Assembly (NCBI GenBank): GCA_023133595.1
Contig: JAGLWF010000008.1
Location: 1 to 52,576 of the forward strand
DNA from: Nanobdellota archaeon
GTDB taxonomy: Archaea; Nanobdellota; Nanobdellia; Woesearchaeales; WJKV01
DNA: 52,576 nucleotides
Direction of reading: 5' to 3'
Positions 29,815 to 49,974 of the stretch are shown one piece after another. The notes under the pieces were generated by a model. It saw nothing but the letters and a program-made list of their open reading frames with translations, had not been told where the DNA came from and made no database searches. A program made the position numbers and the translations under genes. Position 1 is the stretch's first letter, and every line of letters starts with the position of its first letter.

Positions 29815-31491
29815 ATGTCAAGGACAAGTCTTCCAGGAGTGAGTGACAGAAGAAAAAGAATGCTAGAGAGAAGGCTGAAGAGATTCGGTGCTGGCAACAC
29901 TGCACCAGCATCTCCCACAGACACAACAGTTCCTAGAAGATCCAGAATCGGAAGAGCGCCAAGGAAACCAGCACAGACAACAGCCCCAAAGAATGGAACA
30001 GGCCAGAAGAAAAGATCCATCTTAGACACAATATCACAGGCAGCGAACAAGATGAAGAAGATAGCTGGCTTTGATTACAGTGCAGGAGTCAGGCAGCAAC
30101 TGCATGGATTATACCATCTTGTGCAGGATCGAGGATTATATATCGGTCCAGAAAAAGGGATACAGTTCGATCTCTTGAAAACATTGCCCTTGAATGACAA
30201 TGAAAGCGAGAGTGTTTCGATCTACAAGGAATCGTACAATGCAAACCTGCTATTGACTTTCCTAGTCGGGCTTGTGAACAAAGGAACAATGATTGCATTC
30301 GGTCCTCCAGGTGCAGGAAAGACAACAACCGCAGAGATTGTCGGACATTTTATGTATAATCAAAGTATGAATGATATTTTCGATGCAACTATCTACGGAA
30401 ATCCAGAACTGACACGGGAAGAGATGATCGCACGTCTCCACACTGGAAAATTAATGCTTGGACAGGAAGAAGTTATTGAAAGAGAATTCACAAAAAGCTC
30501 AGTGAAACTGCTTGACGAGATAAACAGGATCCCTCCAGGAACATTAAGTTCATTATATCAAACTATTGATAGAGGTCTTGCAAAATACTATGAAAAAGTC
30601 ATACGATTAAAGGACGGACCGATTTACGCGACTGCAAACGCGCCTGACAGTGGAAACTGGCCACTGCCACCTCCAGTAAAAGATCGGTTTGATCTGGCAA
30701 TTGTTGCGAACGAAATGAATCCTACATTTATCGAACATTTTGATAACAGAGGCAATGAGAATCTGGGAGGAAGTTTAGATGATCTACTTAAGATTCCAAA
30801 ACAACTGCAGCTTGGCCCTACTTCATTGAAAGCTGTCCGGGAAAAGATAAGTGAAGTCGAGATTGACCGTGAAGCAATGAACCAGTTGATCTTTTTCATC
30901 TGCGAGATGAACTACTGTGATCAGGCAGGAATAGACCTTGCAGGAAAAACAAAAGCAAATGCAATGACAGTGAAACCAGGACGATCGCTGTGCAGCAAAT
31001 GCCACTACAAAGAAGGCATCTGCAGTTGTACACAAGAAGCAATCTCTCCTCGTTCATACAAAGCGATTATCACCTATGCAAAAGCTTTGGCGTGGTGGAG
31101 AGGAAAAAATAGTGTGGATGTAGAGGATATCAAACAGATAATACCATACACAATCTGGCATAAGCTTACACTTACTGAAGCTGCAAAGGAATGGGATCCC
31201 AGATATGCGAACGACAAGATTCAGTTTGTGAGAGATTGTTTTGAAGAATCACAAAAAGTTTACCAACAATCAGAATCAGCAATCCCGGAACTAGGAAAGA
31301 TACTATCTTCGATTGTGAAAAGCTACAATCATATCTGCAGGGTCGAATCGAATGGAAAGATGGATGCTCAGAAAAAGACAGCATTAAAGGATGAGATCGA
31401 GGAACAGCTAGGAGAACTCCAGAAACTGGATACACCTGCAAAATACGCGATTGCTGTCGGACTTAAATTTGTATACGAAAGATTGATCTAA
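29815..31491 (+). CDS. MoxR-like AAA+ ATPase with cysteine cluster
   Basis: After a basic, disordered N-terminus (1-65) comes a MoxR-type AAA domain: Walker A GPPGAGKT (163-170), Walker B VKLLDE (230-235) followed by INRIPP, sensor-1 in YATANAP (Asn275), and PVKDRFDL with the arginine finger. A CSKC...CSC cluster (Cys393, 396, 403, 405) in the lid region could bind zinc, which is unusual for MoxR proteins. MoxR ATPases typically act with VWA partner proteins as chaperones for maturation of complexes. The next gene encodes exactly such a VWA protein, 2 nt downstream. Confidence 0.85.
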   Translation: MSRTSLPGVSDRRKRMLERRLKRFGAGNTAPASPTDTTVPRRSRIGRAPRKPAQTTAPKNGTGQKKRSILDTISQAANKMKKIAGFDYSAGVRQQLHGLYHLVQDRGLYIGPEKGIQFDLLKTLPLNDNESESVSIYKESYNANLLLTFLVGLVNKGTMIAFGPPGAGKTTTAEIVGHFMYNQSMNDIFDATIYGNPELTREEMIARLHTGKLMLGQEEVIEREFTKSSVKLLDEINRIPPGTLSSLYQTIDRGLAKYYEKVIRLKDGPIYATANAPDSGNWPLPPPVKDRFDLAIVANEMNPTFIEHFDNRGNENLGGSLDDLLKIPKQLQLGPTSLKAVREKISEVEIDREAMNQLIFFICEMNYCDQAGIDLAGKTKANAMTVKPGRSLCSKCHYKEGICSCTQEAISPRSYKAIITYAKALAWWRGKNSVDVEDIKQIIPYTIWHKLTLTEAAKEWDPRYANDKIQFVRDCFEESQKVYQQSESAIPELGKILSSIVKSYNHICRVESNGKMDAQKKTALKDEIEEQLGELQKLDTPAKYAIAVGLKFVYERLI

Positions 31492-31493
31492 AA

Positions 31494-33332
31494 ATGGCAA
31501 CTGCAACACTGCAACAACAGGGAATTTCAGGACTTGATCCTGCTACATGGAATGCTATCAAGAAGTTTTGGAACTATCCTAATCTGAGAGATCCAATCGT
31601 ACTTACTGACAAGGATCTTGCGCAGCAGATAATGGGGGACAGTATTGCTTTTATCCAGATGGATACCCACGAGATTTTTGTCAATATGCCAAAGCTCGAG
31701 GAAAAAGTAGGGAAACAGCATCTTGACATGATTGTTGCGCACGAGATTGGGCATCACAAACTTATCCCATACGATCTGAGGACAGCTTTGTTTTTGATGA
31801 ATGATACATTAAAAGTTATCAGGGATGAAGAACAGGCAGCTTATGTTCAAAATTTATTTGCAGATATCATAGTTAATACAAAGATCTTCCAGGTTGACCA
31901 GAAGATCGCAGACACATACAATGAGATGCAGAAGAGAAGTGGTGGAGAGACAAATGATGTCTGGGATTTGTACATGCGCATCTATGAAAAATTATGGAAG
32001 CTTCCAGATGGGACTTATGTCAAGAAGTGTTCAAAAGAAGTTGATGATGATGCTGCACACCTAGAAAAAATGCTTTCAAAGCAGATGTTCCGCGCAAAGA
32101 CATGGCGACCAAAGATACAGACATTTGCGCGCGTCTTCAAAAAATATATGGAACGTGTGCATCCATCGAACATGCCTAACAACCAAGGTCAGCAAGGACA
32201 GGGACAGCAGAGCCAAGGTGGAGGCGGTCAAGGCCAGAAGCCGCAGCAAGGTGGCAGCGGCAGTGGAAACCAGCAACAGCAAGGCGGTAATCAAGGTCAA
32301 CAACCTCAGCAAGGAAGCCCTGGCCAAGGCAAGAAGAAACAGAAAAAAGGCGGTGGACAAGGCAAGCAGAAACAAAAAGGAGGCGGCCAAGGAAACCAGA
32401 AGCAGCAAGGTGGAGCAGGCGATCAAAAAGATGACAAAAACAGTCCGACTCCAGACGGAATCTTGATTGATAAACATGAGCCTGGAGATTTTGGTGATGT
32501 TGAGAAAGGTCTGAAAGACATTGCTGGCAACCTTGACAGGGACGATTTCAAGAGATTAGCAGCAGGTATTGGCGGCGCAAACAGCCCCCAGCACGCGAAT
32601 AGGATGTATTATTCTGCTCTGGCAGAAAAATATTCACTCGACATGCCAGAAGAGATGGAGAAAGGCACAAGTTATTTCCGGACACGGGACAGGTTATGGA
32701 CACCGTCACGAGGAGCAAGCCGTCTTGATCTGAAACGGACAATCATGAAAGGCGGACGTCCGATTGCTGCATACAATACATTAGAAAATGTGACAGAAGG
32801 CGCATCACAATTATTCGGTTCAGGAAAAAAGAAAGATCTCATTATTATTATTGATACCAGTATCAGCATGGCAAATCCAAGACGTACAATGTCCTATGCA
32901 ACACTATCAGGAATGGTTGCTGCACACTCAGCACACAACCAGGGATGCAAGGTTGCGACCATTAATTTTTCAGATAGCTGCAAAGTGACACAATTCACGC
33001 GCAACCTAGACAAGATCGATAAAGCATTGTTATGTTATCAAGGAAATGGAACATGCCTTCCAACACACGAGTTGATGGATCTAGTGGATTCAAATCCAAA
33101 CGATCAGCACATCTTGCTGATTACAGACGCTGAGACGTACAACATAGACTCTGCAAAGAGTTATTTCAGGCGCGTATTCAACAAGACAAAAAGCGGAACA
33201 GTATTTTTAGTTGATCCAGACGGAAAGGATGCTCATACATTCAAGAGAATAGGCTACAATATTCAGCCGATGACAGGTGAAGAGGATATGTTAGAGGCCA
33301 CATTAGATGATATGCAGGAGGTATACAGTTAA
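31494..33332 (+). CDS. VWA protein with N-terminal HExGH metallopeptidase-like domain
   Basis: Residues 1-225 contain IVAHEIGHHKL (zinc motif HEIGH, 83-87) and a downstream NLFADIIVN helix that may complete the site, as in DUF2201-type VWA proteins. Residues about 228-310 are a low-complexity Gln/Gly/Lys linker. Residues about 445-600 are a VWA domain with MIDAS motif DTSIS (454-458). The pairing with the MoxR-like ATPase one gene upstream matches known MoxR-VWA modules such as RavA-ViaA and NorQ-NorD. Here the VWA subunit adds a probable protease. No signal peptide, so cytosolic. Confidence 0.85.
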   Translation: MATATLQQQGISGLDPATWNAIKKFWNYPNLRDPIVLTDKDLAQQIMGDSIAFIQMDTHEIFVNMPKLEEKVGKQHLDMIVAHEIGHHKLIPYDLRTALFLMNDTLKVIRDEEQAAYVQNLFADIIVNTKIFQVDQKIADTYNEMQKRSGGETNDVWDLYMRIYEKLWKLPDGTYVKKCSKEVDDDAAHLEKMLSKQMFRAKTWRPKIQTFARVFKKYMERVHPSNMPNNQGQQGQGQQSQGGGGQGQKPQQGGSGSGNQQQQGGNQGQQPQQGSPGQGKKKQKKGGGQGKQKQKGGGQGNQKQQGGAGDQKDDKNSPTPDGILIDKHEPGDFGDVEKGLKDIAGNLDRDDFKRLAAGIGGANSPQHANRMYYSALAEKYSLDMPEEMEKGTSYFRTRDRLWTPSRGASRLDLKRTIMKGGRPIAAYNTLENVTEGASQLFGSGKKKDLIIIIDTSISMANPRRTMSYATLSGMVAAHSAHNQGCKVATINFSDSCKVTQFTRNLDKIDKALLCYQGNGTCLPTHELMDLVDSNPNDQHILLITDAETYNIDSAKSYFRRVFNKTKSGTVFLVDPDGKDAHTFKRIGYNIQPMTGEEDMLEATLDDMQEVYS

Positions 33333-33333
33333 A

Positions 33334-35295
33334 ATGGCAAGACAAAGATTTGACAGGACAAAATTAAAATCAGAAACAGCTATGAGGTTATATGATAGTA
33401 TATTCGGGACAAAAGGAAATATTGTTCCAGCTGAAGATGATGGTGATGCTAGAAAAAGGATGATGCGGGAGAAGAAGCTTGCATTCGATCTTCTTAGGAT
33501 GGAAAGAGGCCCACAGGCAATTGTTGAAGAAAAAGATGGATCATTGTTTCCGTCAGGCAATGGATCCAGAAATGGCTTTGGAAATGATTTTGGTAACCAT
33601 CCAATAAATGGTGGATATGTGCCATCTTTGGAGGAAGTTGCTGAAGTCTCAAAAGAGATTGATCTTAACGAGACACAAGTGCCTGAACCAATAAGCATTC
33701 CAGTGACAGGCGCATCAGAACCAGAAGAGACATCTGTTCCAGTAAAAGGAAAGAAAAAAGGTTTTCTTGCAAATCTGGACAAGCAGTATACTGGTGATGC
33801 AGGTAGCGCAGGCGATAGCACAGATATTTCCAATGTTACTGTTCCAGTTGCATCAGATGTATCAGACGATCAAGATGCAGGACAATTAAGTACAGGTATC
33901 ACAACAAAAATCCCTTCATTTGCAAGGACAGGACAAAGTGCAATAACATCAAAAGTTCCGCAGATAAGCCTTGAACAATACCTGGCATATTTCGAGGATT
34001 ACGGTGTTGTCGGCGAAGAGAAAAATTTGCTTAGGTTTAGTTTCCGATTAAGCCAGTTGAAGCCGACATTTGTCGACGGAAAAGCTGGAAGCGGAAAGAC
34101 TTACATAATCAAAGCAGGTCTAAGTCTGTTGCCAAAGGATTATGTTTTGTCAGTTGACTGTGCGAGCGACACATCATTATTCATAGATGATGATGTTGAG
34201 AAATATCCAATCATCTGGTTCAAGGAATTCCAGAAAGTCGCGTATAAGACAGGCGGAAACAATCAACTGTTGGAGATGATCAAGAGTTGGGCAGAAGGAG
34301 AGGATGCGAGACGAAGAGTGAATGATCACGGAAAATTAAAATTCCAGACCATCAGTGAGAAATGTGTCATTTCTTGTCTTGCAACAGAGAATGCAAAGAA
34401 AAGCAAGTTTGACAAAGATAAAGAAACTCTGCGTAGGTTTGACATTCTTCATACTGACGAGAGCCCGGAACATATCCAGGCAGTCCTGGAATACAAGGCA
34501 AACCAGAGATCAATGACAGCACAGAAGAAAAAACTGAGCAAATTTCAAGAGGATCAGGTAAAGCGTCACTTCAAAGAGCTTGTTGATCTTGCTCAGGACA
34601 AAGACAACCCGATAATGGTCTGTGATCCGTTTGGAGATATTGTCAAGGAATATATTCCAGAGACTCCGAGAGCAATGGCATACGTGGATATGTACTACGA
34701 TTATGTTGATGGTTGTGCAAAATTCCACCACAAGAACAGGTTGGGAGAAGACAATCTGATACTTGTTGATTTGGAAGATCAGTATATTGTCTACCAGATA
34801 TATCACAAAGACTTCTGTGATACTCTGAAGAAATTGGACAATCTTTCAGATGAGGGATTCGACAAGTGCGCAAAAAAATCAAAAGAGCAGGTGGACTGGA
34901 CAAAGATGTTCGAGAAAGGGTACGAAGTTGTGAAAGAACGCTTCTCTGAAGAGGTAGCCGAGGAGTGGGTCGCTAGACAGCTGGTCAATAACAAGATCAC
35001 TGTCTGGGACCCTTTAACTAAAACAGATGTTGTGATTGTTGATTACAACAATCCAACTTCCCATCCTCTTAAACAAGCAAGCTATGATCCAGCTGTTCAG
35101 CAGAGTGATCCAAATGATTCGGATGATCCTGTCCAAGGACCGCAATATTCACCACCACAGATCACACCAGTTCATTCTGGAGCAGATATTGCTGCAGAAG
35201 CATATACTCCAGATGTTCCAGGCGAAGATGAGATCGAGGTTGAGATTGAAGAAGAGATCGAGACACAGCCAGTAGAAGAAATTTCACTTGAATAA
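33334..35295 (+). CDS. AAA+ ATPase with altered Walker B
   Basis: A long disordered, acidic N-terminal half (1-205) precedes an AAA-like domain: Walker A GKAGSGKT (249-256), then IIWFKEF (about 293-299) in the Walker B position, where the magnesium-binding Asp is replaced by Lys while the Glu is kept. A sensor-1-like LATEN and RRFDI arginine-finger-like segment follow. A 75-residue acidic Pro-rich tail ends the protein. It may bind but hydrolyse ATP poorly, acting as a regulatory or structural subunit for its two active neighbours. The ATG at 33334 lies 1 nt after the previous stop; the upstream in-frame start would overlap it. Confidence 0.75.
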   Translation: MARQRFDRTKLKSETAMRLYDSIFGTKGNIVPAEDDGDARKRMMREKKLAFDLLRMERGPQAIVEEKDGSLFPSGNGSRNGFGNDFGNHPINGGYVPSLEEVAEVSKEIDLNETQVPEPISIPVTGASEPEETSVPVKGKKKGFLANLDKQYTGDAGSAGDSTDISNVTVPVASDVSDDQDAGQLSTGITTKIPSFARTGQSAITSKVPQISLEQYLAYFEDYGVVGEEKNLLRFSFRLSQLKPTFVDGKAGSGKTYIIKAGLSLLPKDYVLSVDCASDTSLFIDDDVEKYPIIWFKEFQKVAYKTGGNNQLLEMIKSWAEGEDARRRVNDHGKLKFQTISEKCVISCLATENAKKSKFDKDKETLRRFDILHTDESPEHIQAVLEYKANQRSMTAQKKKLSKFQEDQVKRHFKELVDLAQDKDNPIMVCDPFGDIVKEYIPETPRAMAYVDMYYDYVDGCAKFHHKNRLGEDNLILVDLEDQYIVYQIYHKDFCDTLKKLDNLSDEGFDKCAKKSKEQVDWTKMFEKGYEVVKERFSEEVAEEWVARQLVNNKITVWDPLTKTDVVIVDYNNPTSHPLKQASYDPAVQQSDPNDSDDPVQGPQYSPPQITPVHSGADIAAEAYTPDVPGEDEIEVEIEEEIETQPVEEISLE

Positions 35296-35304
35296 GGAAA
35301 TAAA

Positions 35305-37203
35305 ATGGAAAGAAGCGGCTATGAAAAGAGAAGTAAAAGGATAAAAGCTGTTTTAGACTTCTTCATGGCTAGTTTTTATTCGAATGCGCATGAAGTTGTT
35401 GACAAGATTGAATCTTTGTATCACGAGAATGCTAGCTTCACTAAAGAGAGTCTAAAAGAGGAGAATGACATACCCTCCCATATATCTGCTCTAGAAATCA
35501 AGATCAGGGATATGCCTTCTTCTGGCAAGCTATCTTTAACACTGCGGCAGGAAGGTCTTTCAAGAGCAGGATTAATAGGAGAATTAAATCAAGATGTAGA
35601 AGCTATCAAAAAGAAACATCATGATTTTAAAGAACAATACATCCAGAGCCTGGAGAAGCGGTTTGAAACTCTGCGCAAAGAGATAGAAACTTCTGATGAT
35701 GAGACAGCAATCGAACGGAAAAAAGGAATTCTTAGAGATATTGTAGCATCCTACACTCTATTCAAAGCAGAAGTGATTGATAAAGATGCAAGCTTTAGCA
35801 TAAGCACAAACGAGACCATTGAAAGATATAATAATCTACTAAAAGAACAGGAAAAGTTCGAAGAAGGTCTTAAGCAAGTTATAGTGGAATACATAAGTAT
35901 TGATTCTCCTGCCGGATATGATAGCATATGCAGAAAAGTAGAGATACTAAAAAGAGACCATCAAAAAAGATTTAAGAAACATACAAGATGGAAGAGCAAG
36001 GTATTCTGCGACGATGTAAGTGAATTGTTAGAGGGATTTGAATTTGAACTGGAAAATTTTGAGAGATTGAGGTATCTTAAAAAAAGAGCAGAGATTGAGA
36101 AAGACAGAGCTTTATGCGAACAATTGATTGGCCAAATCCCATTAGTTGACAAAGAGGGAATGCAAGAATTATTAAAGCAGTATGCAGATCTTCCAGAACG
36201 TAAAAATCTCCCATGGGAAAATGTTATCTTTTTACATCAAAGTGTGGCAGAATATAACGCTGCACAGACAAAACTTAGAGAAGAGATGAGAAAGCATACA
36301 GACAGATGCCTAGAGAAACCAGACGAACTTGAATTGACATCAGATCTGGAAACAGATGAAGCACGAATAAAAGAGTACATAAAAGATCTCGATACGAAAT
36401 TTCGAAGAAATATACAATTCTTTTTGCTAGGAAAATCAAAAGCAGTTGAAAATGCAGCAGAAGAGACAATGGCTGGAAAAAAAGCTGCGGAAAAAAAGCT
36501 GGTATTCTTCTATAGATCCAGAGAAGAGATAAAAGAGGTTGATGAAGAGACAGGGAGATTTCTCACAGCACTCGCAGAGCGCGACACTTCGATCGACATA
36601 GAAAAACCAGATAGAGAGTATGCGCTTCGTTCTATAGACAATGAATATTTATCAGCAGCTGTAAGCCAGTATGTAAGAACAGTGCGCAGATATATAGAGA
36701 GAAGAGACCAATGGATAAAAGAAGATAGAGATAGAGATTTTGAAAAACGCCTGGAGAGATCCAGAGCACAAATACAGATTGAAAATTTAAGATCGCAATT
36801 GGGTGAAAAAGAAGCAGAGATCAGGGTTCTCGAGAGAAGAGATACAGAAGCTGCAAAACGCTTTGATCTTGATGACTGGATGAAAAATCATGTTTCCACT
36901 CCAGGAGATGATAGGTTATTCAAAATTGGATTAATTATATCTGGAAATTGTGAAGTTTTTCAAGGCAAATTAATGAGAATTGGAGATTGTTTGTTATCTC
37001 CAGAATTCGAAGAACTTATTGAAAGTTATATCACAAATCCAAAGCATAATTATATTTCTGATAAAGAATTCAGAAAAGGTCTGGCGCTTGGCATAGTCAA
37101 GGCAATTGAATCCCCAGGAGAAATTGCAGATGGAATAGCTGCAGGAGTCTATGAAGCAGAGAAACTTTATGGATTGGCCCGAACAATCAGTTGTAGTGAT
37201 TAG
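35305..37203 (+). CDS. Large helical/coiled-coil protein of block A
   Basis: This 632-residue protein is almost entirely charged helix, with long coiled-coil stretches (for example around residues 95-200 and 450-520) and no membrane segment. A compact C-terminal domain (about 530-632: FKIGLIISGNCEVFQGKLMR) is less charged. No family recognised. It follows the ATPase genes by 9 nt and is probably a scaffold or adaptor of the same complex. Confidence 0.65.
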   Translation: MERSGYEKRSKRIKAVLDFFMASFYSNAHEVVDKIESLYHENASFTKESLKEENDIPSHISALEIKIRDMPSSGKLSLTLRQEGLSRAGLIGELNQDVEAIKKKHHDFKEQYIQSLEKRFETLRKEIETSDDETAIERKKGILRDIVASYTLFKAEVIDKDASFSISTNETIERYNNLLKEQEKFEEGLKQVIVEYISIDSPAGYDSICRKVEILKRDHQKRFKKHTRWKSKVFCDDVSELLEGFEFELENFERLRYLKKRAEIEKDRALCEQLIGQIPLVDKEGMQELLKQYADLPERKNLPWENVIFLHQSVAEYNAAQTKLREEMRKHTDRCLEKPDELELTSDLETDEARIKEYIKDLDTKFRRNIQFFLLGKSKAVENAAEETMAGKKAAEKKLVFFYRSREEIKEVDEETGRFLTALAERDTSIDIEKPDREYALRSIDNEYLSAAVSQYVRTVRRYIERRDQWIKEDRDRDFEKRLERSRAQIQIENLRSQLGEKEAEIRVLERRDTEAAKRFDLDDWMKNHVSTPGDDRLFKIGLIISGNCEVFQGKLMRIGDCLLSPEFEELIESYITNPKHNYISDKEFRKGLALGIVKAIESPGEIADGIAAGVYEAEKLYGLARTISCSD

Positions 37204-37219
37204 GACAACATTAGTTTAT

Positions 37220-39123: not shown

Positions 39124-39855
39124 TTAAGATTGATTCTCAGAAATATTCCACAACATATCAAAATAATTCTTGTATGCTTCTGCAATCTCTTTATTGTTTA
39201 TTTGGATGATATACGGACTCTTTGTCCATAGTGCAAGAAGTACTAAATCTCCGCAGACAAGATTTGTGACAGGAGAATTAAATTGATTCTTACAATGCCT
39301 TACTTCTGTGAGAGTCAATGTTCGTGCAAATTTTATCCTGCTTTTGTCATTAAAATCATATATGACTTTGATCGGGATTTTCTTTTTTATTCTATTCTCG
39401 TGGAATAATCCAACATGCGGCCTCATACTTTCTGGAGGGGGAGCTCCATATACCTTGACAGTCTCCCCTGATTCCAACAAACCGTTCATAGCAGAAAGAA
39501 ATGCCTGTATGCCTTTAAGGATGAATGTCTGTCCTTCGTGCTGCGCCATCTTTTCTCTTAATTGCAGCTGGGGAAGGATCCGCAATAATTCAGTCTCTTT
39601 TATTTTCAGCATGTTTACCAGATTATCACTAGGTGTTGTCTCATAGTATTTGACATTCTGTTTTACAATGAAAGAGACAAGGCCTCTGCTGATCAGTTTC
39701 TTCAAAGAATCATACACATTTGTCCTGTGCACACCGCTCTTGTTAGCTATATTATGCACAGTAGAAGTGCCAAGTTCGTTCAACGCGAGGTAGACGCGCG
39801 CCTCATTCTTGTTCAAGCCGAGTTCTTCAAGGACTTTTTCCATTTCAGGTATCAT
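39124..39855 (-). CDS. TrmB-family transcriptional regulator
   Basis: A winged helix (residues 1-75: LGLNKNEARVYLALNELGTSTVHNIANKSGVHRTNVYDSLKKL) is followed by a short coiled region (ETELLRILPQLQLREKM) and a C-terminal effector domain with VKVYGAPP and HENRIKKKIPIKVIYDF, typical of TrmB-type regulators. In other archaea these sense sugars or other metabolites. It is the only regulator in the 27-kb cluster and is divergent from block B across a 309-nt region with four copies of TTGTCTA, its likely operator. Confidence 0.88.
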   Translation of the reverse strand: MIPEMEKVLEELGLNKNEARVYLALNELGTSTVHNIANKSGVHRTNVYDSLKKLISRGLVSFIVKQNVKYYETTPSDNLVNMLKIKETELLRILPQLQLREKMAQHEGQTFILKGIQAFLSAMNGLLESGETVKVYGAPPPESMRPHVGLFHENRIKKKIPIKVIYDFNDKSRIKFARTLTLTEVRHCKNQFNSPVTNLVCGDLVLLALWTKSPYIIQINNKEIAEAYKNYFDMLWNISENQS

Positions 39856-40010: not shown

Positions 40011-40176
40011 TGTAATGATTGTCTATTAATATGAAACCCCTTAGGCAAGCAACAATTCTAAAAGAGGCTTATCAGAGATGACTGTTCACCCCTGTAAGGG
40101 GGCTAACCTTTATAAACAACCAACATAAGAAGTTTGATAAGGGGCAGATAGACAAACATCACACTTGGGGATAAAA

Positions 40177-42921
40177 TTGGCAAGTCGAACCTCCTTGGAG
40201 AATCAAGTTTCTGAACGCTCTGAACAAGGCATCACTATTGGCTGGATTGGTATTGGGGCCCTTGCCAAGAGTTTTCTAATGGATTTTATTAAAGATAAAT
40301 GGTATAATTGGCATGTGAATAATAAACCTCCAATCAAAATTATGATAAACAACCAGGATTCTGAGGATAAAATCAAATCTGTTGAAGCTTTTATAAAAAA
40401 AAAACTTCTAAAGCCTGCAACAGAGATGCGAGATTCGCATCCAGATTTGGATGAAATGATTTCTAATTATGTTACAGCAGCTCCTCTTGAAATAGTTGCA
40501 AACAAAGCAAACGCGATAGTAGTGGCATATGATTCTGGAATAGATGAACCAGAAATAGTTCCTGTATCTAGATTCCTTGTACAGAATCCAAATATTAAAA
40601 CAATGCTGACTTACAAGGTCGAAGTAACAAAAAAAGATAAAGAAGGAAATGCTATTAAAAAAATAGATGGAAATGGAGATGAAGTTAAAGATAATAATGG
40701 GAATACTGTATATGAAAAGATACCAATGCGCATGGTAGATGTTTTAGGAAAATCTAAAGCACTCAAATTCATGATAACAAATTGTGTTGATTATATGACA
40801 TATTTCAGTCAAAGGCATTTGATGAGAGAGCACGTCAAAAAGGATGAAAACCTAATGGAGTTAGTAAAATATTTATCTAAGGACGACAAAGAATGGACAT
40901 ACCAGGAGGATCTATCAGGAATACCAGGAAGACATTTAGTAAAAGCATTACAAGAACATGATGATAATTCAAGAGAATACTTGAAATTCTTAGCAAGAAG
41001 TTGGTTTGGATTTGCTCAAATAGACCCTTCAAGATTAATGTATGAGACCGAAGACATGATTGAAAGAGAATTAAAGAAAAGAGAAATACCATTAACAAGA
41101 GCAGATTATGATCTTCAGGGACTTTTCTTTTCAGGAGAGCACGGAAAATGGGGATTTCCAGCATTATCAAGCCTTAGGATAGCTCTACATGATGAAAAAT
41201 TGAGAGAAAAGTATCCAAATCTAGAATTTCCGTTCAGAGCAAAAGAAGTAACAGAGCAAGGAGAAATAGTTGCAGAAGAAGGAATGTTCTTTGAATATCG
41301 GAAATTTTCACCACAGATAATTGCAGAGAATAAAACGAAAAAAGAGGGAGATAAAAGGCATCCACTCAAAGAGTCTCTTCCTGCTTTAGTTGGAAGTTAT
41401 GTTCCAAGAATGTTTAATGCTGAAGGATTATGGCCTATAGAGGAATTGGCTCCATCAATGACAAAAGTCATAATGGCTATGGCACATATGTTTGTATATC
41501 CTTGCAAAATGCCAGTTCAAGGTATTTTTGGTTCTTTAATGCACATCAACGATAACGAAGATCCTGCAGTGCTTACACTTCCAGCAGAATTCGAAGCATA
41601 TGGTCATCATAAGAGAAAAACTTTAGGAGCTAGAGTGAATCAAAGATTTGCGCATCCAAAAGATGGTAGATTCAATAAAGAAGCAAAAGCAGAAAGCGGG
41701 GTTCCAGTATTTGATAAAATAGATACAGAAACATTTAATAATTTTCTTAATAGCAAAATTCTTGGCACTATAGCTGCTGCAGAAAGAAGCGAACTTGAAG
41801 AACCAAATCTAGGTTTACCTTATATTAATCCTCTTGATGCGATTGTTGCTGTTCATGATTCAGATCGTACTGGAGAAATTCTTTTAACAACTTTCAAGGG
41901 AAGCCGTATACCTGTTGGAAGGATATCTCAGCTTGGCTCGATTGAAGATATATGCGGAAACGGAAAGACACTGATTGCTTTAGCAAACAGTAGAAGTATA
42001 ACAAGGAATAAATTTTTCCGATTTAAATTTAATTTTGAAAAGGGTTTCACATTAAAAGGGGAGTATAATGTCAGACCTGCAGGAGCACATACAATCAAGG
42101 AAGGGATTGAAATTGAACCAGAGGGAGAACATTATTCATACAGATATACAAAAGTTGAAAATACAATTAATTGTTTAGGAATCTCTGGGGAACACTTATA
42201 TGTTTTATATGATAGACATATTGAGATCCGAGATCTAGAGACATTGGAAGTAGCAAAAAGTAAAAGATTCACCAAAGACGTAAGAGAGCCAGAATATATG
42301 GTAATAGATAGCAGAGGTTATGTATTTCTCCAAAGTGCAGATTTAGATGAGATAGACAAGATAACAGTAATAGATGCTGATTTAAATGTTGTTGGCAAAA
42401 TAGATCATAAGAAACAAATACTTGAAAACAACCTGAAAATTCAAGAATTTAAGAAATCCCACTATTTATTCTATGCCATTCAAAATAATACTCATGTGTT
42501 ATGTAAAGATATAACCGAGATCACAAATCCAGCAGAGATTCAATCTGTAGATTTAGAAGTCAAAGGCAATAGAGGAACCGCAATTTTTGGAACAGGAATA
42601 TATAGAAATCCAAAGACAGGGACAGAGCTCTTGTATATTGCAAGAGTCGATAATGGAAGAGATGATAAAAAATGGCTAAAAGTTGAGCTTTATGATAAAA
42701 ATAAAGATGGCAAATTAGTAAAGGTTGGAGATAAAGAGATGTGTCCTTTGACTAATCCTGATGAAATAGGTGATATAAAATCTTATGGAAACTATATCAT
42801 TGTTGGAAACAGATACTACCTGCTTGCAAAACACATGCATCGCACTGATTGGAGTAGAGACATAGAGAAAAAAGGCCTAGATATGATAATGAATTTTCAA
42901 ATATTAAACGAGGGTGCTTGA
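40177..42921 (+). CDS. Lactate/malate-dehydrogenase-like domain fused to a propeller-like domain
   Basis: Numbering starts at the TTG at 40165; this entry uses the TTG at 40177, four codons later. No ATG lies ahead of the domain. A Rossmann fold starts at ITIGWIGIGALAKS (23-36). Further on the LDH/MDH catalytic pattern appears: N206 in ITNCVDYMTYFS (like NPVD), D287 and R290 in IDPSRLMYE (like LDSARFR), and H326 in SGEHGKWGFPALSS (like GEHGDSxVPxWSS). All four catalytic-type residues are kept. Insertions and about 330 extra residues make it far larger than the usual 310-330. The last 330 residues show repeated YVLYD/IEIRD/VFLQS strands, consistent with a beta-propeller. Enzymatic activity is possible but unproven. 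Confidence 0.7.
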   Translation: MASRTSLENQVSERSEQGITIGWIGIGALAKSFLMDFIKDKWYNWHVNNKPPIKIMINNQDSEDKIKSVEAFIKKKLLKPATEMRDSHPDLDEMISNYVTAAPLEIVANKANAIVVAYDSGIDEPEIVPVSRFLVQNPNIKTMLTYKVEVTKKDKEGNAIKKIDGNGDEVKDNNGNTVYEKIPMRMVDVLGKSKALKFMITNCVDYMTYFSQRHLMREHVKKDENLMELVKYLSKDDKEWTYQEDLSGIPGRHLVKALQEHDDNSREYLKFLARSWFGFAQIDPSRLMYETEDMIERELKKREIPLTRADYDLQGLFFSGEHGKWGFPALSSLRIALHDEKLREKYPNLEFPFRAKEVTEQGEIVAEEGMFFEYRKFSPQIIAENKTKKEGDKRHPLKESLPALVGSYVPRMFNAEGLWPIEELAPSMTKVIMAMAHMFVYPCKMPVQGIFGSLMHINDNEDPAVLTLPAEFEAYGHHKRKTLGARVNQRFAHPKDGRFNKEAKAESGVPVFDKIDTETFNNFLNSKILGTIAAAERSELEEPNLGLPYINPLDAIVAVHDSDRTGEILLTTFKGSRIPVGRISQLGSIEDICGNGKTLIALANSRSITRNKFFRFKFNFEKGFTLKGEYNVRPAGAHTIKEGIEIEPEGEHYSYRYTKVENTINCLGISGEHLYVLYDRHIEIRDLETLEVAKSKRFTKDVREPEYMVIDSRGYVFLQSADLDEIDKITVIDADLNVVGKIDHKKQILENNLKIQEFKKSHYLFYAIQNNTHVLCKDITEITNPAEIQSVDLEVKGNRGTAIFGTGIYRNPKTGTELLYIARVDNGRDDKKWLKVELYDKNKDGKLVKVGDKEMCPLTNPDEIGDIKSYGNYIIVGNRYYLLAKHMHRTDWSRDIEKKGLDMIMNFQILNEGA

Positions 42922-42922
42922 T

Positions 42923-45073
42923 ATGGAAATAAACTTAACTTTAGAAGAACTTTTAAGTTTTTCGCGAAAGAGAGATAAATTTCCTAAACATCAGAAGGTT
43001 CTAGACGACCATGGAATCAAATTAATAGAAGAAATTGGAAAAGGTTCTAGTGGGACGTTTATATACGCTGCTGTTGAAATTAAACCTGCCGATGCAGTTA
43101 GATATTGTACTCCTTTTAAAGCTTCAAGCAAGATTGATGATTTTCACCAAACTGTGGGGGTCTCAAAAGAAGAAAGTAAAACAAAAAGAACAAATTCCAA
43201 ATTCATTGCAGTAAAACTTGTTGGGAAAAAAAGACTAGGGGATAAAGTTAAAAATATTTTAACAACTTCAAGTGGTGGGAGAAAAACAGAACAAGGTCCA
43301 GGGCGTATCTCAGGAGATAAATATCTGAAGATTATAATGTCTCTGATGCAGATTGATAATCCATACATTGTAAAATATTATCCAGATAAAGCAGTGATTA
43401 CCCATAAAGACGACCCAGAGAAAGGAGTTATATTTCTTCCAATGGAATTATTAAACTTTAAATTCAGTGAAACTTCAACTGGAAAGAATTCTCTAGATTT
43501 ATTATATGAAATTCTTAGGGGAGAAGATGAAGAACTGAAAAGAAAGACAAGAGAAAGATTTCCCGGGATATTTGCAAAAATTTGTTTTGGATTAGAAAAA
43601 GCATATGAAATTTCTCCAGAAACTCCAATTATTCATAGAGATCTGAAACCTGCAAATATAATGTTTGATTTTCTCTCTAAAAAAGACGATGTAGAAAGAA
43701 TAAACTATTATGACACAATCTATGGGCTAAGTGAGGAGTATGAATGGGATCTTCGGGAGATATTAGAAAAGAAATTAAAAACAGGCGAAACACTAGTTCC
43801 AAAAATAATTGATTTTGGAATTGCAAAAGCAGAAGCCCCAGCAAAGACTATAACATATGAAACAAAAGGAACAGGATTATACATTCCTCCAGAAAGAGAT
43901 CTTTACGTAGAATGCCCGATTACCGCTGATGTATATCAGATTGGTGTTATGCTTATGGATGTCTTTGTACATGATGGGGATGAAAAATCACAAAAATTTC
44001 AACGTTTACTTGCTGAAAAAACAAAGAAAACTATCAAAGAATTAAAGAAAAATGCTAAGATCTCCGGAGATACTCACGATATAGAATTTGATTATACATG
44101 GGTATTAGATAGAGAGGATATTGCACAGAAATCTGAAGAATTGGCAAAAGATCATGAAAGGATTAGGAAGGGAGCACTCAAAAAGGTTACAGAAAGCATT
44201 AAGGTGAAAAACAATCCTCTGATGACAGAAGTTATCAAAAAAGCAATGGCAGCAGATCCAGAAAACAGATACCATTCTATGGCTTCATTAAGATATGATA
44301 TCCTTCTCTCGACAAAAAAAGACGAACTTCTGGAATTAGAAAAGCGGGCAAAAGCAAAAAAAACAAAACTTACAGATAATATTACGTTACTTAATGATAT
44401 TGGATCAATGTTAAAGGACATAGAATTAACAGATGAGAGAAAGATTCGAACAGATTATAGAAATGGAAAAGTTATTGACAATTCAGAAATCAGTATTGGA
44501 GAACATTTCTTAGAAGTGAGCGAATGGGAAGATACAAAAAATATCAGAACCTTATATCGAGAATTCCAGAGAAAAATTGATCAGCTATTGCCTACAATCC
44601 CAAAATTGTGCGAAGTAACTGGAAATAATGGTAGTGCTGATAAAAACAAGATCGACAAGAATGTCGATTATGTTATAGAACAAGCTGAAAGATACAAACA
44701 GATTCTGCAATTTGAAGAAAAATATCGTGGAATAGATACAATCATAAAATATGCTCTTGGAGATTCAAATGCTCCTAATTTTGAAGATAATCCAATAAAA
44801 GAGGTACTTAAAAAATTATTCGAGAGAAGAAAACAGGAAGCAACAGAAGAATGCGATAATTTCTTAAGAGATGTACAAGCATACGAAAAGGAACTGATAC
44901 AAAAACAACTAGAGACTATTGGAGAAGAAGTAGATGGTATAGGCTGGACTGATACTGAATTTCAAAGGATATGCAGTGCATGTGAAATTCTCCTGACAGT
45001 ATATGAACCCGGATATACAAATAAAATCCAAGAGTGCAATAATTCATTTTATGAGGGTAAAAGTCGAAAATGA
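42923..45073 (+). CDS. Hanks-type Ser/Thr protein kinase with helical C-terminus
   Basis: This 716-residue protein has a full kinase core: glycine loop GKGSSGTF (39-46), FIAVK lysine (Lys98), catalytic loop HRDLKPANI (238-246), DFG (297-299) and a GTGLYIPPE segment in place of the APE motif. There is an insertion of about 30 residues between the glycine loop and the lysine and another of about 40 between HRD and DFG, both unusual. Residues 400-716 are helical and coiled. No transmembrane helix. The ATG at 42923 has a GAGGGTG site 6 nt upstream and starts 2 nt after the previous stop. It probably phosphorylates members of the cluster. Confidence 0.92.
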   Translation: MEINLTLEELLSFSRKRDKFPKHQKVLDDHGIKLIEEIGKGSSGTFIYAAVEIKPADAVRYCTPFKASSKIDDFHQTVGVSKEESKTKRTNSKFIAVKLVGKKRLGDKVKNILTTSSGGRKTEQGPGRISGDKYLKIIMSLMQIDNPYIVKYYPDKAVITHKDDPEKGVIFLPMELLNFKFSETSTGKNSLDLLYEILRGEDEELKRKTRERFPGIFAKICFGLEKAYEISPETPIIHRDLKPANIMFDFLSKKDDVERINYYDTIYGLSEEYEWDLREILEKKLKTGETLVPKIIDFGIAKAEAPAKTITYETKGTGLYIPPERDLYVECPITADVYQIGVMLMDVFVHDGDEKSQKFQRLLAEKTKKTIKELKKNAKISGDTHDIEFDYTWVLDREDIAQKSEELAKDHERIRKGALKKVTESIKVKNNPLMTEVIKKAMAADPENRYHSMASLRYDILLSTKKDELLELEKRAKAKKTKLTDNITLLNDIGSMLKDIELTDERKIRTDYRNGKVIDNSEISIGEHFLEVSEWEDTKNIRTLYREFQRKIDQLLPTIPKLCEVTGNNGSADKNKIDKNVDYVIEQAERYKQILQFEEKYRGIDTIIKYALGDSNAPNFEDNPIKEVLKKLFERRKQEATEECDNFLRDVQAYEKELIQKQLETIGEEVDGIGWTDTEFQRICSACEILLTVYEPGYTNKIQECNNSFYEGKSRK

Positions 45074-47334
45074 CAGATATAAGAAAAACTTTGGATCAAC
45101 TCATTGGATTGACCAAAGCATATATCCCTATAGGCAATAAAGTAGTTGAAGAAATCCGGAAAGAGTATTATGCTGGAGAAGGAACAGGAGAAGAAAGAGT
45201 CAAGAGAGCACTAGGAACTTTAGCAACCATACATAAAGTAAAAATAGATTACAAGAGATTCTATCTTATGGCAGAATTACTCGCAAGAGAAGCCCTTGAA
45301 AAAAGAGCAGAAGGAGATATTGAAGCATACAGTTATAATCTGAAGATGGCAGGTTTAATATTCGAAGGAGAAGAAGATAAATTTACAAAGCTTATGCAAA
45401 GCAGAGAGTACATTGTAGAAGACAGAGAGATAAAAGCAAATTTTTTTAAAAAAATGGAGTTTAGTATAAAAAAACTCTACAAAAAGAATGGCACTCTCAA
45501 ATTCGCAGACCGATCAGATTATAAGAAAGCAAAAGCGATCTACGAGTTTGCAAAAAAAGCTGAAGCTAGTAAGAGAGAAAATCCCTGGAAAGATGAAGAA
45601 ATTTTAAATGATAATGCAGATCTTCACGACAAATTATATCATTATCTATTAAAATATGTAGATTTTAAAGATGGCATTTTTCAAATGATTGATTCTACGC
45701 ATGAAGGAAAATTTGTGATGGGTCCTTTAGGCTTCATGGACGATATTGATCCGTTAGCGCAAGAGATTTTTGCATTGAATAATAGAAATCGAAAGGAGCT
45801 TAGAAGGGCTATAGAAAGAAATCCAAATAATCTCAGAATGCAAAAAGAGCTTTTAGAGATTATGTGGCCAAGACGCATGGACCCATATATAGCAATGCTG
45901 ATGCTTGAAACAAAATCAAAAACAGTTATAGCAGATGGGATAATTAGCCAATGGCAAACAATTAGAAGAACATATGAAAATCTTATAGCTGCTAGCTCAA
46001 AAAATCTCCAACGAACAGAATATCTAAAAAGAGAATATGCTGAATTTCTTCACTATTTTGGCGCAGAATGCTATTCAATACTTAAAAAACATACAAGCTT
46101 ATTGTATAAAGATAAACCATTTATCTTTCCTAGCAGATTTACAAATTTTAATTCTCCACAGATGCTAGAAATTCTAATTACAGCTGCAGAAGAGAGCATA
46201 ACAGAATCTAGAAAATTAACAAAGGGCCTTAATAATCCTGAAAAAATCGGCCTAACTATATTTGCTGAAGATAAAGATATTCTTCCAGAATTATATTATG
46301 CAACAGGAAATTTTAAGGCAGCTATTTCATCTGGAGTTCTAACAAATGATGCTAAAAAAACTATCATTCAAGCAGCAGGAGATAGAGTTCAGATATTTGA
46401 TTTATACAAAGATATAGTACTAAATCTAATTAGATTAGAAGAACCTAAAAAAGGGCAGTCTGAATTAGATGAGTTATTAATAGATACTTATGATAGAAAA
46501 AATAGACACAAAATTGAAAAAGAGTTAAGATCACATAACAAGATATGTCTCGCTCTATATAAAGATATTAATTCAAAAGTTCAAAAAGCATTTGAATTAA
46601 TTAAAAAACAGCCATTATTATCCCAAATTAGGTATAGAAGAGAATTCTTCACTATGGTTGCAGCTGTTGAACTAAACATGGAGGAATATTTATCAAAACT
46701 TAGAGAAATTATATCCCTTCGTGGGAAAAGTGATCCTTTTGTAAAAGATCTGTTAATAGAAGCGAGTGCTTGGAATTCTGTTTATAGAAAACTAGAACCA
46801 GATATTTATAGGCATGAAGTAGTGAATATGTTAGAAGAAGAAGCAGGAGAAAATGTTTATCCTATGTATAAACGTCTCAGAGAAATTTTCTCCGGTTTAA
46901 ATGTATTTTTGAAATTTAATGCAGGTTCTTTAGGAGAAATCGGATTAGGTCCTGAAATCGAAGAAAGATTGAGAGACATAAAGGATAAGAAAGACAAATG
47001 GAAAGGAGATTATGGATTTTTAATGGAAACTTTAGAAAATTTAGAAAGAGATTTTAAAAGATGGGAAGGTTTCGAAAAAACCGCTAGAAGTAAATTAGAT
47101 GACCTCTTCGGGAATGTTGATCCTGAAGAAGAAGCAAGAAAAGAAAATGAAAAGAAAGAAGAAGAAAAAAAGCAAAAAACTATTTGGAAATTAATCACAA
47201 CATTACCTAAGGATACAGAAATTGAAAAAAAACGATTAAATGACATAAAAAATTGGAGACCAAGCACTCATGTTAATCTATTACCTCCAGAATATAGGCC
47301 CCCTAAAGGGTGGATCGAAAGGTGGTTTGGATAA
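45070..47334 (+). CDS. Large alpha-helical protein of block B
   Basis: This 754-residue protein has no recognised domain. It is helix-rich throughout with alternating amphipathic helices (for example AELLAREALEKRAEGDIEAY, residues about 68-87) that suggest TPR-like or other helical repeats. It ends in a charged coiled region and a Pro-rich tail with PPEYRPPKGWIERWFG. The ATG overlaps the kinase stop (ATGA), so it is co-translated with the kinase and is a natural candidate for its substrate or scaffold. No membrane segment. Confidence 0.65.
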   Translation: MTDIRKTLDQLIGLTKAYIPIGNKVVEEIRKEYYAGEGTGEERVKRALGTLATIHKVKIDYKRFYLMAELLAREALEKRAEGDIEAYSYNLKMAGLIFEGEEDKFTKLMQSREYIVEDREIKANFFKKMEFSIKKLYKKNGTLKFADRSDYKKAKAIYEFAKKAEASKRENPWKDEEILNDNADLHDKLYHYLLKYVDFKDGIFQMIDSTHEGKFVMGPLGFMDDIDPLAQEIFALNNRNRKELRRAIERNPNNLRMQKELLEIMWPRRMDPYIAMLMLETKSKTVIADGIISQWQTIRRTYENLIAASSKNLQRTEYLKREYAEFLHYFGAECYSILKKHTSLLYKDKPFIFPSRFTNFNSPQMLEILITAAEESITESRKLTKGLNNPEKIGLTIFAEDKDILPELYYATGNFKAAISSGVLTNDAKKTIIQAAGDRVQIFDLYKDIVLNLIRLEEPKKGQSELDELLIDTYDRKNRHKIEKELRSHNKICLALYKDINSKVQKAFELIKKQPLLSQIRYRREFFTMVAAVELNMEEYLSKLREIISLRGKSDPFVKDLLIEASAWNSVYRKLEPDIYRHEVVNMLEEEAGENVYPMYKRLREIFSGLNVFLKFNAGSLGEIGLGPEIEERLRDIKDKKDKWKGDYGFLMETLENLERDFKRWEGFEKTARSKLDDLFGNVDPEEEARKENEKKEEEKKQKTIWKLITTLPKDTEIEKKRLNDIKNWRPSTHVNLLPPEYRPPKGWIERWFG

Positions 47335-47336
47335 AA

Positions 47337-49946
47337 ATGGTAAAATTTCGAAAATTTAGACAAAGGGATTTGAAAGATAGTGAGATCTATAGTCTGATAG
47401 ATTCAAATTCAAAAAGAAGTAGATTAGTAGAATGGGTATTAGATCATTATAAACCAATCGCAGCTGTTGGAGCTTCTGCTCTAGTCATCGCAGGATTAGG
47501 AGGGGCTTTGTTATGGAGTATGGGTCGTGATGAAGGTGAAAGAAACGAAAAGTTGGAACGCGAGATTCATGAAGGGATATTGCGACAAGAGCATGCTAGA
47601 AAAATAAAAGAACTAAAGACAGATTTAGATAAAGAAAAAAAGCGCAATAAAAGATATGAAAAAGAAAAAAATGATCTCGAAGATCAAAGAGATGGATATA
47701 AAAATATGTTTCAGGAGGCTGATAAACTCTCAGGAACTTACAAAACACAAATTGATAATTTAAACGAAAGTGTTAGTAAACTAAGAGGAGATATTAAAGG
47801 CCTTGACGGGCGAATCGAGGAGATAATTAAAGAATTAAAAAGTACTAGAGAGGCAAACACAGGTTTAAAAAAGAATTTAGATGACTCTGAAAGAAACCTG
47901 CAAACTGTACAGAAGAAATATGAAGCAAGAGATAAGGAGTATGTTGAACTAGATGGAAAGCAAAAAGAGATACAAGAAGCATATGATAAATTACAAGAAG
48001 ATATTAAAAAGAATGTTAAAGATACTGAAGCATTGAATAATTCTATAGAAAGAGACAAAACACGATTAAAAAAACAAAAAACAGCTCTAGAAGAAGACTT
48101 AAGAACTGCAAAAGAAAATCACGAGACACTCCAGAAAGCTAAGGTAAAAATCGAAAAACGATATAAAAATACATTACGAGATATAGAAGCATTAAGAACC
48201 AGCAAAGGAGACTTAGATAAAGATTATGCCGGAATTGTTGAGAAAAATAAAGGATACACTACAAATATAGAACGATTAGAAAAATTAGTTAATGATCTAA
48301 CAAATTCATTGAGAGATATAAGCGAACGAACCAAAAAGCTTACAGAAATGCATGAACAAGAGACTAGAAAGCTTAAAAAAGAACATAATACAAAAATCGA
48401 AGAGAGAGAAAAAGCATATTCAAAAGAAAGAACAAAACTCGTCGACGAAAGGGACAAATACCAAGGACAGTTAGAAGGTCATATTGATGAAATTGCTGGA
48501 TTAAATGAGAAGATAACCGGATTAAACAATCAGATTGTTTTATATGAAAAAAAGAAAGAGGAAGATAAAGCAACTATTGATGCACAAAGTAATGACATCG
48601 AAAAGAAGAGAAAAAGAATTGGAGAGCTTGAAAAAAGAATAGAAGAATTAAAAGGAAGTGAAGATTCCAATAAAGAAGAGATCAAAAATCTTAAAGAAGA
48701 GAGAGAGATTCTTAAAGTAAGCTTAAAGAAAAAAACAGAAGAATATGACACCGAGAAAGAAGCTCATGATGAACGAAAAGAAAAATATAAAGATCTTTCA
48801 GAAATATTGGATAACATTCCAGATGAGACAAAAGCACTGAGTGGCACAAGGATTGCATTTGTTCTAGAAGGTAATTTATACGTTGTCGATGCAAATTATG
48901 GTTCTTCTAATAGAGCTTTTGAAATTATATGGGGAAATATCCGAAGACCCCGGCTAAGTCCAGATAAGAAAAATGTTGCTTATGAATACAAACATTATGA
49001 TGATGCAGATAAAGAAGGGATACAGATACTAAGATGGAGAATTGGATTAGTAAAGATCACAGAAGATCTTAGTCAAAAATATTTGCCCATTATTACCAGT
49101 CCAGAATTTAGAAAACCTTCAGAGCCAAATTTCTTAAAGCAAGACATGACTAATCAGGTATGGGCAGGCAACAATCTTCTTGTTTTCATAAGTGGAGAAA
49201 AGAATGATCTTATCTGGACCTATTCACTTACAGATGGAAAAGTTACATGCCTAGTCAAGAACGATGCAGGAAGAATAGGGAATCTTGCAGTATCTCCAAA
49301 TGGAGAGAAAGTTGCGTATGTTGTTCATAGTGATTATGATGAGAGAAACGCATGCCAGATCTTTGTATCTGATATCTTAGGAAATTCTCCTGGCAAACAG
49401 ATCACACTGGAAGACAACAAATACAATACTCAGCCAGCGTGGGTAAATGATTATATTCTTGTTTATGTAAAAGAGGGTCGCGAAAGTGATAGTGAGATTC
49501 AATTAGTAGATACCAGATTAAAAGAGCTTTGGAAAAAAGGAAAGAAATGGAAATACAGGAATGTAACTAAAAATGTTGGTTCTACCTGGTTCCTGCCTGT
49601 TAACTGGTTGTCGAGCAGGAATAAGGCAGACTTCAATCCTGCTGTTAATGAATATGGTTATGTACTGTTCACAAACGAAGATGATGGATTAGTCCTTAAA
49701 CTTACAAAAGGGATGAGCATACCTAACGGAGTATTATCAAAACCAGATAATATGCCTTATGATAAAGAGATAATCTTAGATCCAAAAGGGACAGACAAGC
49801 ACAGCAGAGCTATCTTCTTTCCGGACAGAGAGACCATCCTTGCAAAAGTTGGCGACAAATTATATCGGTTCAAGAAATCAAACAGTGGATATGAGGCTCA
49901 TTTCATAACAAAAGTTGACAAGGAGAGTGAATTCCATGTCAGATAA
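47337..49946 (+). CDS. Membrane-anchored coiled coil with C-terminal TolB-like propeller
   Basis: This 869-residue protein has one transmembrane helix (IAAVGASALVIAGLGGALLW, about 41-60), about 430 residues of near-continuous coiled coil, and a C-terminal region from about 500 with TolB/WD-like blades: RIAFVLEGNLYVVDAN, RRPRLSPDKKNVAYEY and NLAVSPNGEKVAYVVHSD. Such a stalk plus propeller could span a distance from the membrane and present a binding head. The N-terminus is basic, so the stalk is probably outside. The ATG at 47337 starts 2 nt after the previous stop. Confidence 0.72.
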   Translation: MVKFRKFRQRDLKDSEIYSLIDSNSKRSRLVEWVLDHYKPIAAVGASALVIAGLGGALLWSMGRDEGERNEKLEREIHEGILRQEHARKIKELKTDLDKEKKRNKRYEKEKNDLEDQRDGYKNMFQEADKLSGTYKTQIDNLNESVSKLRGDIKGLDGRIEEIIKELKSTREANTGLKKNLDDSERNLQTVQKKYEARDKEYVELDGKQKEIQEAYDKLQEDIKKNVKDTEALNNSIERDKTRLKKQKTALEEDLRTAKENHETLQKAKVKIEKRYKNTLRDIEALRTSKGDLDKDYAGIVEKNKGYTTNIERLEKLVNDLTNSLRDISERTKKLTEMHEQETRKLKKEHNTKIEEREKAYSKERTKLVDERDKYQGQLEGHIDEIAGLNEKITGLNNQIVLYEKKKEEDKATIDAQSNDIEKKRKRIGELEKRIEELKGSEDSNKEEIKNLKEEREILKVSLKKKTEEYDTEKEAHDERKEKYKDLSEILDNIPDETKALSGTRIAFVLEGNLYVVDANYGSSNRAFEIIWGNIRRPRLSPDKKNVAYEYKHYDDADKEGIQILRWRIGLVKITEDLSQKYLPIITSPEFRKPSEPNFLKQDMTNQVWAGNNLLVFISGEKNDLIWTYSLTDGKVTCLVKNDAGRIGNLAVSPNGEKVAYVVHSDYDERNACQIFVSDILGNSPGKQITLEDNKYNTQPAWVNDYILVYVKEGRESDSEIQLVDTRLKELWKKGKKWKYRNVTKNVGSTWFLPVNWLSSRNKADFNPAVNEYGYVLFTNEDDGLVLKLTKGMSIPNGVLSKPDNMPYDKEIILDPKGTDKHSRAIFFPDRETILAKVGDKLYRFKKSNSGYEAHFITKVDKESEFHVR

Positions 49947-49974
49947 ACTTATGTTCCATACGGAGGAAAAGACT

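Follow-up and report, generated by a model that had tools for sequence, protein, structure and literature searches.

The gene analyzed here lies in a window of 52,576 nucleotides (contig JAGLWF010000008.1, Nanobdellota archaeon assembly GCA_023133595.1), and its closest described counterparts are the enzymes of the L-lactate/malate dehydrogenase (LDH/MDH) superfamily (PF00056, PF02866), with which its product shares the predicted fold, the GxGxxA turn, and the equivalents of N140, D168, R171, and H195. It differs from the ordinary enzymes in scoring below the sequence cut-offs and in carrying large insertions and a C-terminal extension, and its family falls outside the ordinary-enzyme clade; unlike ordinary NAD-dependent LDH/MDH, it has no acidic residue after β2 and sits in a kinase/AAA+ operon. 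The locus also resembles prokaryotic phospho-switch operons of a kinase and a PP2C phosphatase, since several relatives pair a Ser/Thr kinase and a PP2C gene beside the sensor gene; here, however, the candidate sensor is an LDH-type domain, and the window cluster itself has no PP2C gene. Finally, the window cluster joins MoxR, vWA, and further AAA+ ATPase genes, as do the MoxR-vWA ternary conflict systems described mainly in bacteria (PMC7159879). The text of that paper mentions neither lactate, TrmB, nor Woesearchaeota, and "dehydrogenase" occurs only in its reference list.

A divergent dehydrogenase-like protein

The gene and the residues on which its assignment turns are as follows.

40109..40116 (+): TTTATAAA, TATA-box-like element 56 nt 5′ of the TTG, putative function
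40165..42921 (+): LDH-like protein gene, 918 aa, TTG start giving the longest ORF
40570..40572 (+): R136, which may correspond to LDH loop R109 (R-x6-N spacing preserved; an insertion makes the alignment ambiguous)
40780..40782 (+): N206, equivalent of LDH N140 by alignment
41023..41034 (+): D287-P-S-R290, equivalents of LDH D168 and R171 by alignment
41140..41142 (+): H326, equivalent by alignment of catalytic LDH H195, invariant across the family

In-frame TTG codons at 40177 and 40195 are alternative starts. The first-pass annotation of this DNA had begun the gene at 40177, one of these alternatives, although the longest ORF begins at 40165 and the residue numbers of that annotation count from there. 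The encoded protein comprises a core (approximately residues 14 to 480) followed by a β-rich C-terminal region. The same annotation had read an LDH/MDH catalytic pattern from the sequence, and the alignment located all four of its residues where they had been placed, in the contexts MITN206CVDYM, QID287PSR290L, and SGEH326GKW. H326 and D287 align with the His195/Asp168 catalytic pair of the superfamily, and R290 and N206 align with Arg171/Asn140 of the LDH substrate pocket. The Gly-rich dinucleotide turn, also noted earlier, is GIGALA, beginning at residue 29 (G29-x-G31-xx-A34), and the large insertions that had been reported in the core span roughly residues 125 to 180 and 226 to 278. At the position of R109, R136 shows the R-x6-N spacing of the family, whereas MAFFT pairs K156 with it. 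At the level of sequence alignment, the catalytic pattern in 40165 to 42921 is thereby confirmed as real.

Searched alone, the query matched no Pfam or NCBIfam model above its cut-off, did not reach the gathering cut-offs of PF00056 and PF02866 (passed by the relatives L040, L042, L044, L137, and L138), and found no match above the cut-off among PDB sequences. Single-sequence searches of 60 and 353 genomes yielded nothing usable, a match at L002 (E = 0.008) being rejected since it sits in an unrelated deaminase/kinase-like ORF, and searches of genome-contig and viral-contig collections likewise gave no usable match. When the query alone was compared with LDH profiles by hhalign, a partial match was obtained with a score of 26.7; two GAPDH-like proteins scored higher, and shuffled sequences reached up to 23.4.

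A Pfam Ldh_1_N search across 60 genomes of the phylum returned ordinary 300-aa enzymes together with odd long LDH-like proteins, one of which adjoins a kinase gene. A profile built from six of the long proteins matched LDH/MDH in the PDB at 1e-30 and, run on 338 genomes of the order, retrieved about 20 further long members. A 24-member profile was built from divergent LDH-like proteins of the query's own archaeal class, with the query left out. Against this profile, the query ranked first of 609 proteins (E = 5.5e-4; best decoy, 0.022) and scored 14.7 bits versus at most 11.3 bits for 500 shuffles. The matched segments are colinear (residues 16 to 145, 281 to 342, and 390 to 441).

AlphaFold2 models were built from family alignments without ordinary LDH rows. 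The full-length model showed a β-α-β LDH-like core whose two best PDB matches are L-LDH structures (6k12 and 4b7u). In the core-only model (28 rows), many central elements rose to a pLDDT of 70 to 92, and L-LDH structures account for every one of the 50 PDB matches listed (best E = 3.7e-7, probability 1.00). The target-normalized TM score of its superposition on L-LDH is only about 0.5 with an rmsd of about 7 Å, probably because of the insertions. Structure prediction and superposition, the check suggested at the outset, thus gave an LDH-type Rossmann fold, and the models support assignment of the N-terminal half to the LDH/MDH fold class. Together, profile and predicted structure support placing the query in the LDH/MDH superfamily.

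The C-terminal part had been described as propeller-like. Its β-rich nature was borne out by the full-length model, which contains some consecutive antiparallel strands; its pLDDT there is mostly below 50, however, and no sequence match pointed to a propeller. This part of the query matched nothing in Pfam/NCBIfam or among PDB sequences, and the corresponding part of L040 matched no PDB sequence. A C-terminal β-propeller is a plausible candidate fold.

Family conservation and the cofactor site

The query is one member of a family of LDH-like proteins from Nanoarchaeota/Woesearchaeota. In the tree, ordinary LDH/MDH form one clade (support, 1.0), which includes none of the 28 family members. Alignments of 25 and 28 sequences with divergent relatives showed H326 to be invariant, G29, N206, and D287 to be conserved at 90% or more, and R290 at 89%. 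Across 27 relatives, conservation is highest in the columns that correspond to H195 (27/27), N140, D168, and R109 (25/27 each), R171 (24/27), and the first glycine of the Rossmann turn (25/27). Around these residues, the family has diverged to 12 to 20% identity. Since the catalytic and substrate residues of LDH are the most conserved columns of the family, we reasoned that the pocket is under selection. Ordinary LDH of the same class also conserve the four tested residues.

At the cofactor site, the GxGxxA turn is present, and the acidic residue that marks NAD-type enzymes at the end of β2 is missing from the query (MINNQ) and from nearly all relatives. Many relatives carry N/G/S-R at this point, which is a pattern seen in NADP-binding Rossmann proteins. 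Thus, the cofactor, if there is any, would probably be NADP(H).

C-terminal additions vary across the family, and single members show further parts: L096 has a possible transmembrane segment, and L099 has a weak receiver-like C terminus (26.3 bits, below the cut-off). A PP2C fusion suspected in L093 received no support from the PP2C profile.

Kinases at the locus and in relatives

The LDH-like gene is embedded in the following cluster.

28304..29812 (+): classical AAA+ ATPase, assigned to F2 in the conserved gene order (family match)
29815..31491 (+): MoxR-type AAA+ ATPase (family match)
31494..33332 (+): vWA-domain protein (family match)
33307..35295 (+): second AAA-type ATPase, family F7 (family match)
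35305..37203 (+): coiled-coil-like protein in the F8 position (no match to the F8 profile)
39124..39855 (-): TrmB-type transcription regulator, oriented divergently to the LDH-like gene; the family's most frequent neighbor
42914..45073 (+): Ser/Thr protein kinase (Pkinase, 47.2 bits; cut-off, 31.7)
45070..47334 (+): 754-aa helix-rich protein, joined to the kinase gene by an ATGA overlap (no family match)
47310..49946 (+): protein reading, from its ORF, as membrane segment, coiled coil, and β-rich part

The kinase placed directly downstream by the first-pass annotation is borne out by this Pkinase score and by its catalytic motifs (AVK, HRDLKPAN, and DFG). Its gene overlaps the LDH-like ORF by 8 nt, which implies coupled translation. 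Two overlapping genes lie between the AAA cluster and TrmB (37151 to 39101, +); the second encodes a methyltransferase domain, and the first reads similarly and matched no family. The last gene of the operon (49915 to 51813, +) encodes an exported β-rich protein, whose C terminus, ARLSLFWSF, resembles the end of an outer-membrane β-barrel and is unusual for an archaeon.

Clustering of neighboring genes in the relatives revealed a recurring order: AAA+ (F2), AAA (F7), F8 (about 600 aa), TrmB (often on the opposite strand), LDH-like, PP2C, Ser/Thr kinase, and further proteins. The window has F2, MoxR, vWA, F7, TrmB (-), the LDH-like gene, and the kinase at matching positions. When searched with the profiles built for F2, F7, and the kinase family, the window genes matched at 1e-129, 1e-208, and 8e-15, respectively; the window F2 and F7 proteins were included in their own profiles, and the window kinase was left out of the kinase profile. 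The label "restriction-endonuclease-like" for F5 was dropped, as Pfam gives no support for it. The nearest relative of the cluster is on contig JAHIVG010000016.1 of Nanoarchaeota archaeon MM_PC_MetaG.mb.67, and another is found in Woesearchaeota archaeon UBA153.

A separate kinase gene within 1.5 kb was found for 12 of 32 family members versus 0 of 40 ordinary LDH/MDH loci (Fisher P = 1.5e-5), and a TrmB gene within the same distance for 18 of 32 versus 1 of 40 (Fisher P = 1.6e-7), both P values being indicative only because the loci are related and the control is unmatched for phylogeny. For over half of the members, no kinase gene lies within 1.5 kb; TrmB is present beside many of them, and some of the contigs end nearby. 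PP2C genes are frequent near family members, and in several relatives the kinase and PP2C pair directly adjoins the LDH-like gene.

In two relatives, the LDH-like domain and a full kinase domain occupy one reading frame: L137 (590 aa; Ldh_1_N, 30.8 bits; Pkinase, 123.9) and L138 (679 aa; Ldh_1_N, 41.2 bits; Pkinase, 114.8), each with TrmB as the next gene. These fusions are the strongest evidence for a functional link of the LDH-like domain to kinases, which is strongly supported. Searches of the open-licence literature turned up neither this operon nor a kinase fused to an LDH-like domain, an absence that is not proof of novelty.

Other arrangements were seen near family genes. At L136 (1195 to 6041, -), four tandem paralogous Ser/Thr kinase genes lie beside a single LDH-like gene, and at L090 (5687 to 11726, +), the genes downstream of an LDH-like gene encode five proteins that look exported and carry signal peptides; four of these resemble one another.

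A candidate sensor and competing explanations

We know of no described mechanism by which nanosized DPANN archaea sense their metabolic state. Selection on the pocket, together with the kinase fusions and the shared operon, favors a ligand-gated sensor acting on a kinase, and a metabolite or nicotinamide-nucleotide sensor is the most likely role of this protein, with ligand, activity, and direction of signaling put forward as proposals. We therefore consider it probable, although well short of certain, that the protein supplies the sensory subunit of a kinase signaling module in archaea, with a highly diverged LDH/MDH-type domain whose active site is intact. The domain would bind a small metabolite resembling a 2-oxo or 2-hydroxy acid, probably together with a nicotinamide dinucleotide, which is more likely to be NADP(H) than NAD(H). 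Binding, possibly with one turn of hydride transfer, would close the pocket, and closure may raise or lower the activity of the Ser/Thr kinase that the operon also encodes. In relatives, this domain is built into the kinase polypeptide itself, and a PP2C phosphatase gene often comes next. The C-terminal β-rich domain would probably dock partners, and the output would probably reach the AAA+/MoxR-vWA proteins and, via TrmB, transcription.

This is close to the earlier proposal of an LDH/MDH-type sensor that signals to the kinase: its fold and catalytic residues were upheld, as was the kinase link (by the fusions and the 12/32 versus 0/40 count), while the sensing step stays conjectural. Family conservation, kinase fusions, and recurring neighborhoods thus give that interpretation more support than the sequence alone had offered. 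The broader claim, that a catalytically intact LDH/MDH fold is the input of Ser/Thr kinase/PP2C/TrmB circuits throughout an archaeal signaling family, so that the 2-oxo acid or NADP(H) state directly sets phosphorylation, has in our estimate an even chance of being right. The data suggest a metabolic enzyme turned into a cell-signaling sensor. If this is true, a dehydrogenase serving as a kinase input domain would offer a rare example in which an enzyme of central metabolism has become a dedicated signaling sensor, and the natural fusions L137 and L138 make the idea directly testable with one purified protein.

The main rival, which we regard as unlikely, is a working metabolic dehydrogenase of unusual specificity, whose activity the kinase, phosphatase, and TrmB regulate rather than listen to. 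Judged from sequence, the full retention of the LDH residues is equally compatible with plain enzymatic activity, and no ordinary Ldh_1_N protein was found in the query's own genome, so the protein could fill that role. Against it stand the extreme divergence, the large insertions, and the variable C-terminal additions; the surrounding genes encode signaling and AAA+ proteins, none of them metabolic, and the kinase fusions and the weak receiver-like match of L099 fit signaling better.

The MoxR and vWA genes of the window (29815 to 33332), which recur at L045 together with PP2C, raise the question of whether the protein is an accessory part of a conflict (defense) system, its LDH-like domain sensing a metabolic change induced by an invader. 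Bacterial ternary systems of this kind have been described (PMC7159879), but a MoxR-vWA pair is absent from most LDH-like loci, and the majority of the MoxR-vWA loci in the order lack an LDH-like gene. Moreover, no third component or effector of such systems (VMAP, iSTAND, FtsH, or effector domains) was recognized in the window cluster, where the 28304 protein matches AAA only and no peptidase, and the LDH-like protein has no PADLOC match. We consider this role quite improbable. As a separate observation, arrays of about 3 to 12 genes lie beside MoxR-vWA pairs at L053, L054, L050, L058, and L045; the array genes have a short N-terminal motif in common and differ behind it (for example, KKKSLEESLSGHTAQ at L053), and one at L045 carries TPR repeats.

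We give little credence to a structural adaptor, in which the LDH-like domain would be a scaffold and its pocket a relic. Such a role would fit the NAD-type acidic residue having been lost from the query and from nearly all relatives, and it would fit variable C-terminal domains able to bind partners. A relic, however, would not retain precisely the residues for catalysis and substrate binding in a sequence that otherwise falls to 12 to 20% identity. Chance resemblance, by which an unrelated Rossmann-like or α/β protein would carry scattered matching residues, agrees with the negative single-sequence searches but is hardly credible and already contradicted by the top rank against 608 decoys and 500 shuffles, by listed structural matches that are LDH only, and by the equal place in a conserved gene order.

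The cluster is surrounded by archaeal chromosomal DNA, and ORFs on the same contig read as TFB and Spt5. A diversity-generating retroelement (482 to 2751, -) with a reverse transcriptase (RVT_1, 91 bits) lies about 21 kb away from where the AAA/kinase cluster begins; its template repeat (1624 to 1720) and its variable repeat (2034 to 2113, near the end of ORF 1987 to 2751) differ at template adenines and by a 15-nt gap.
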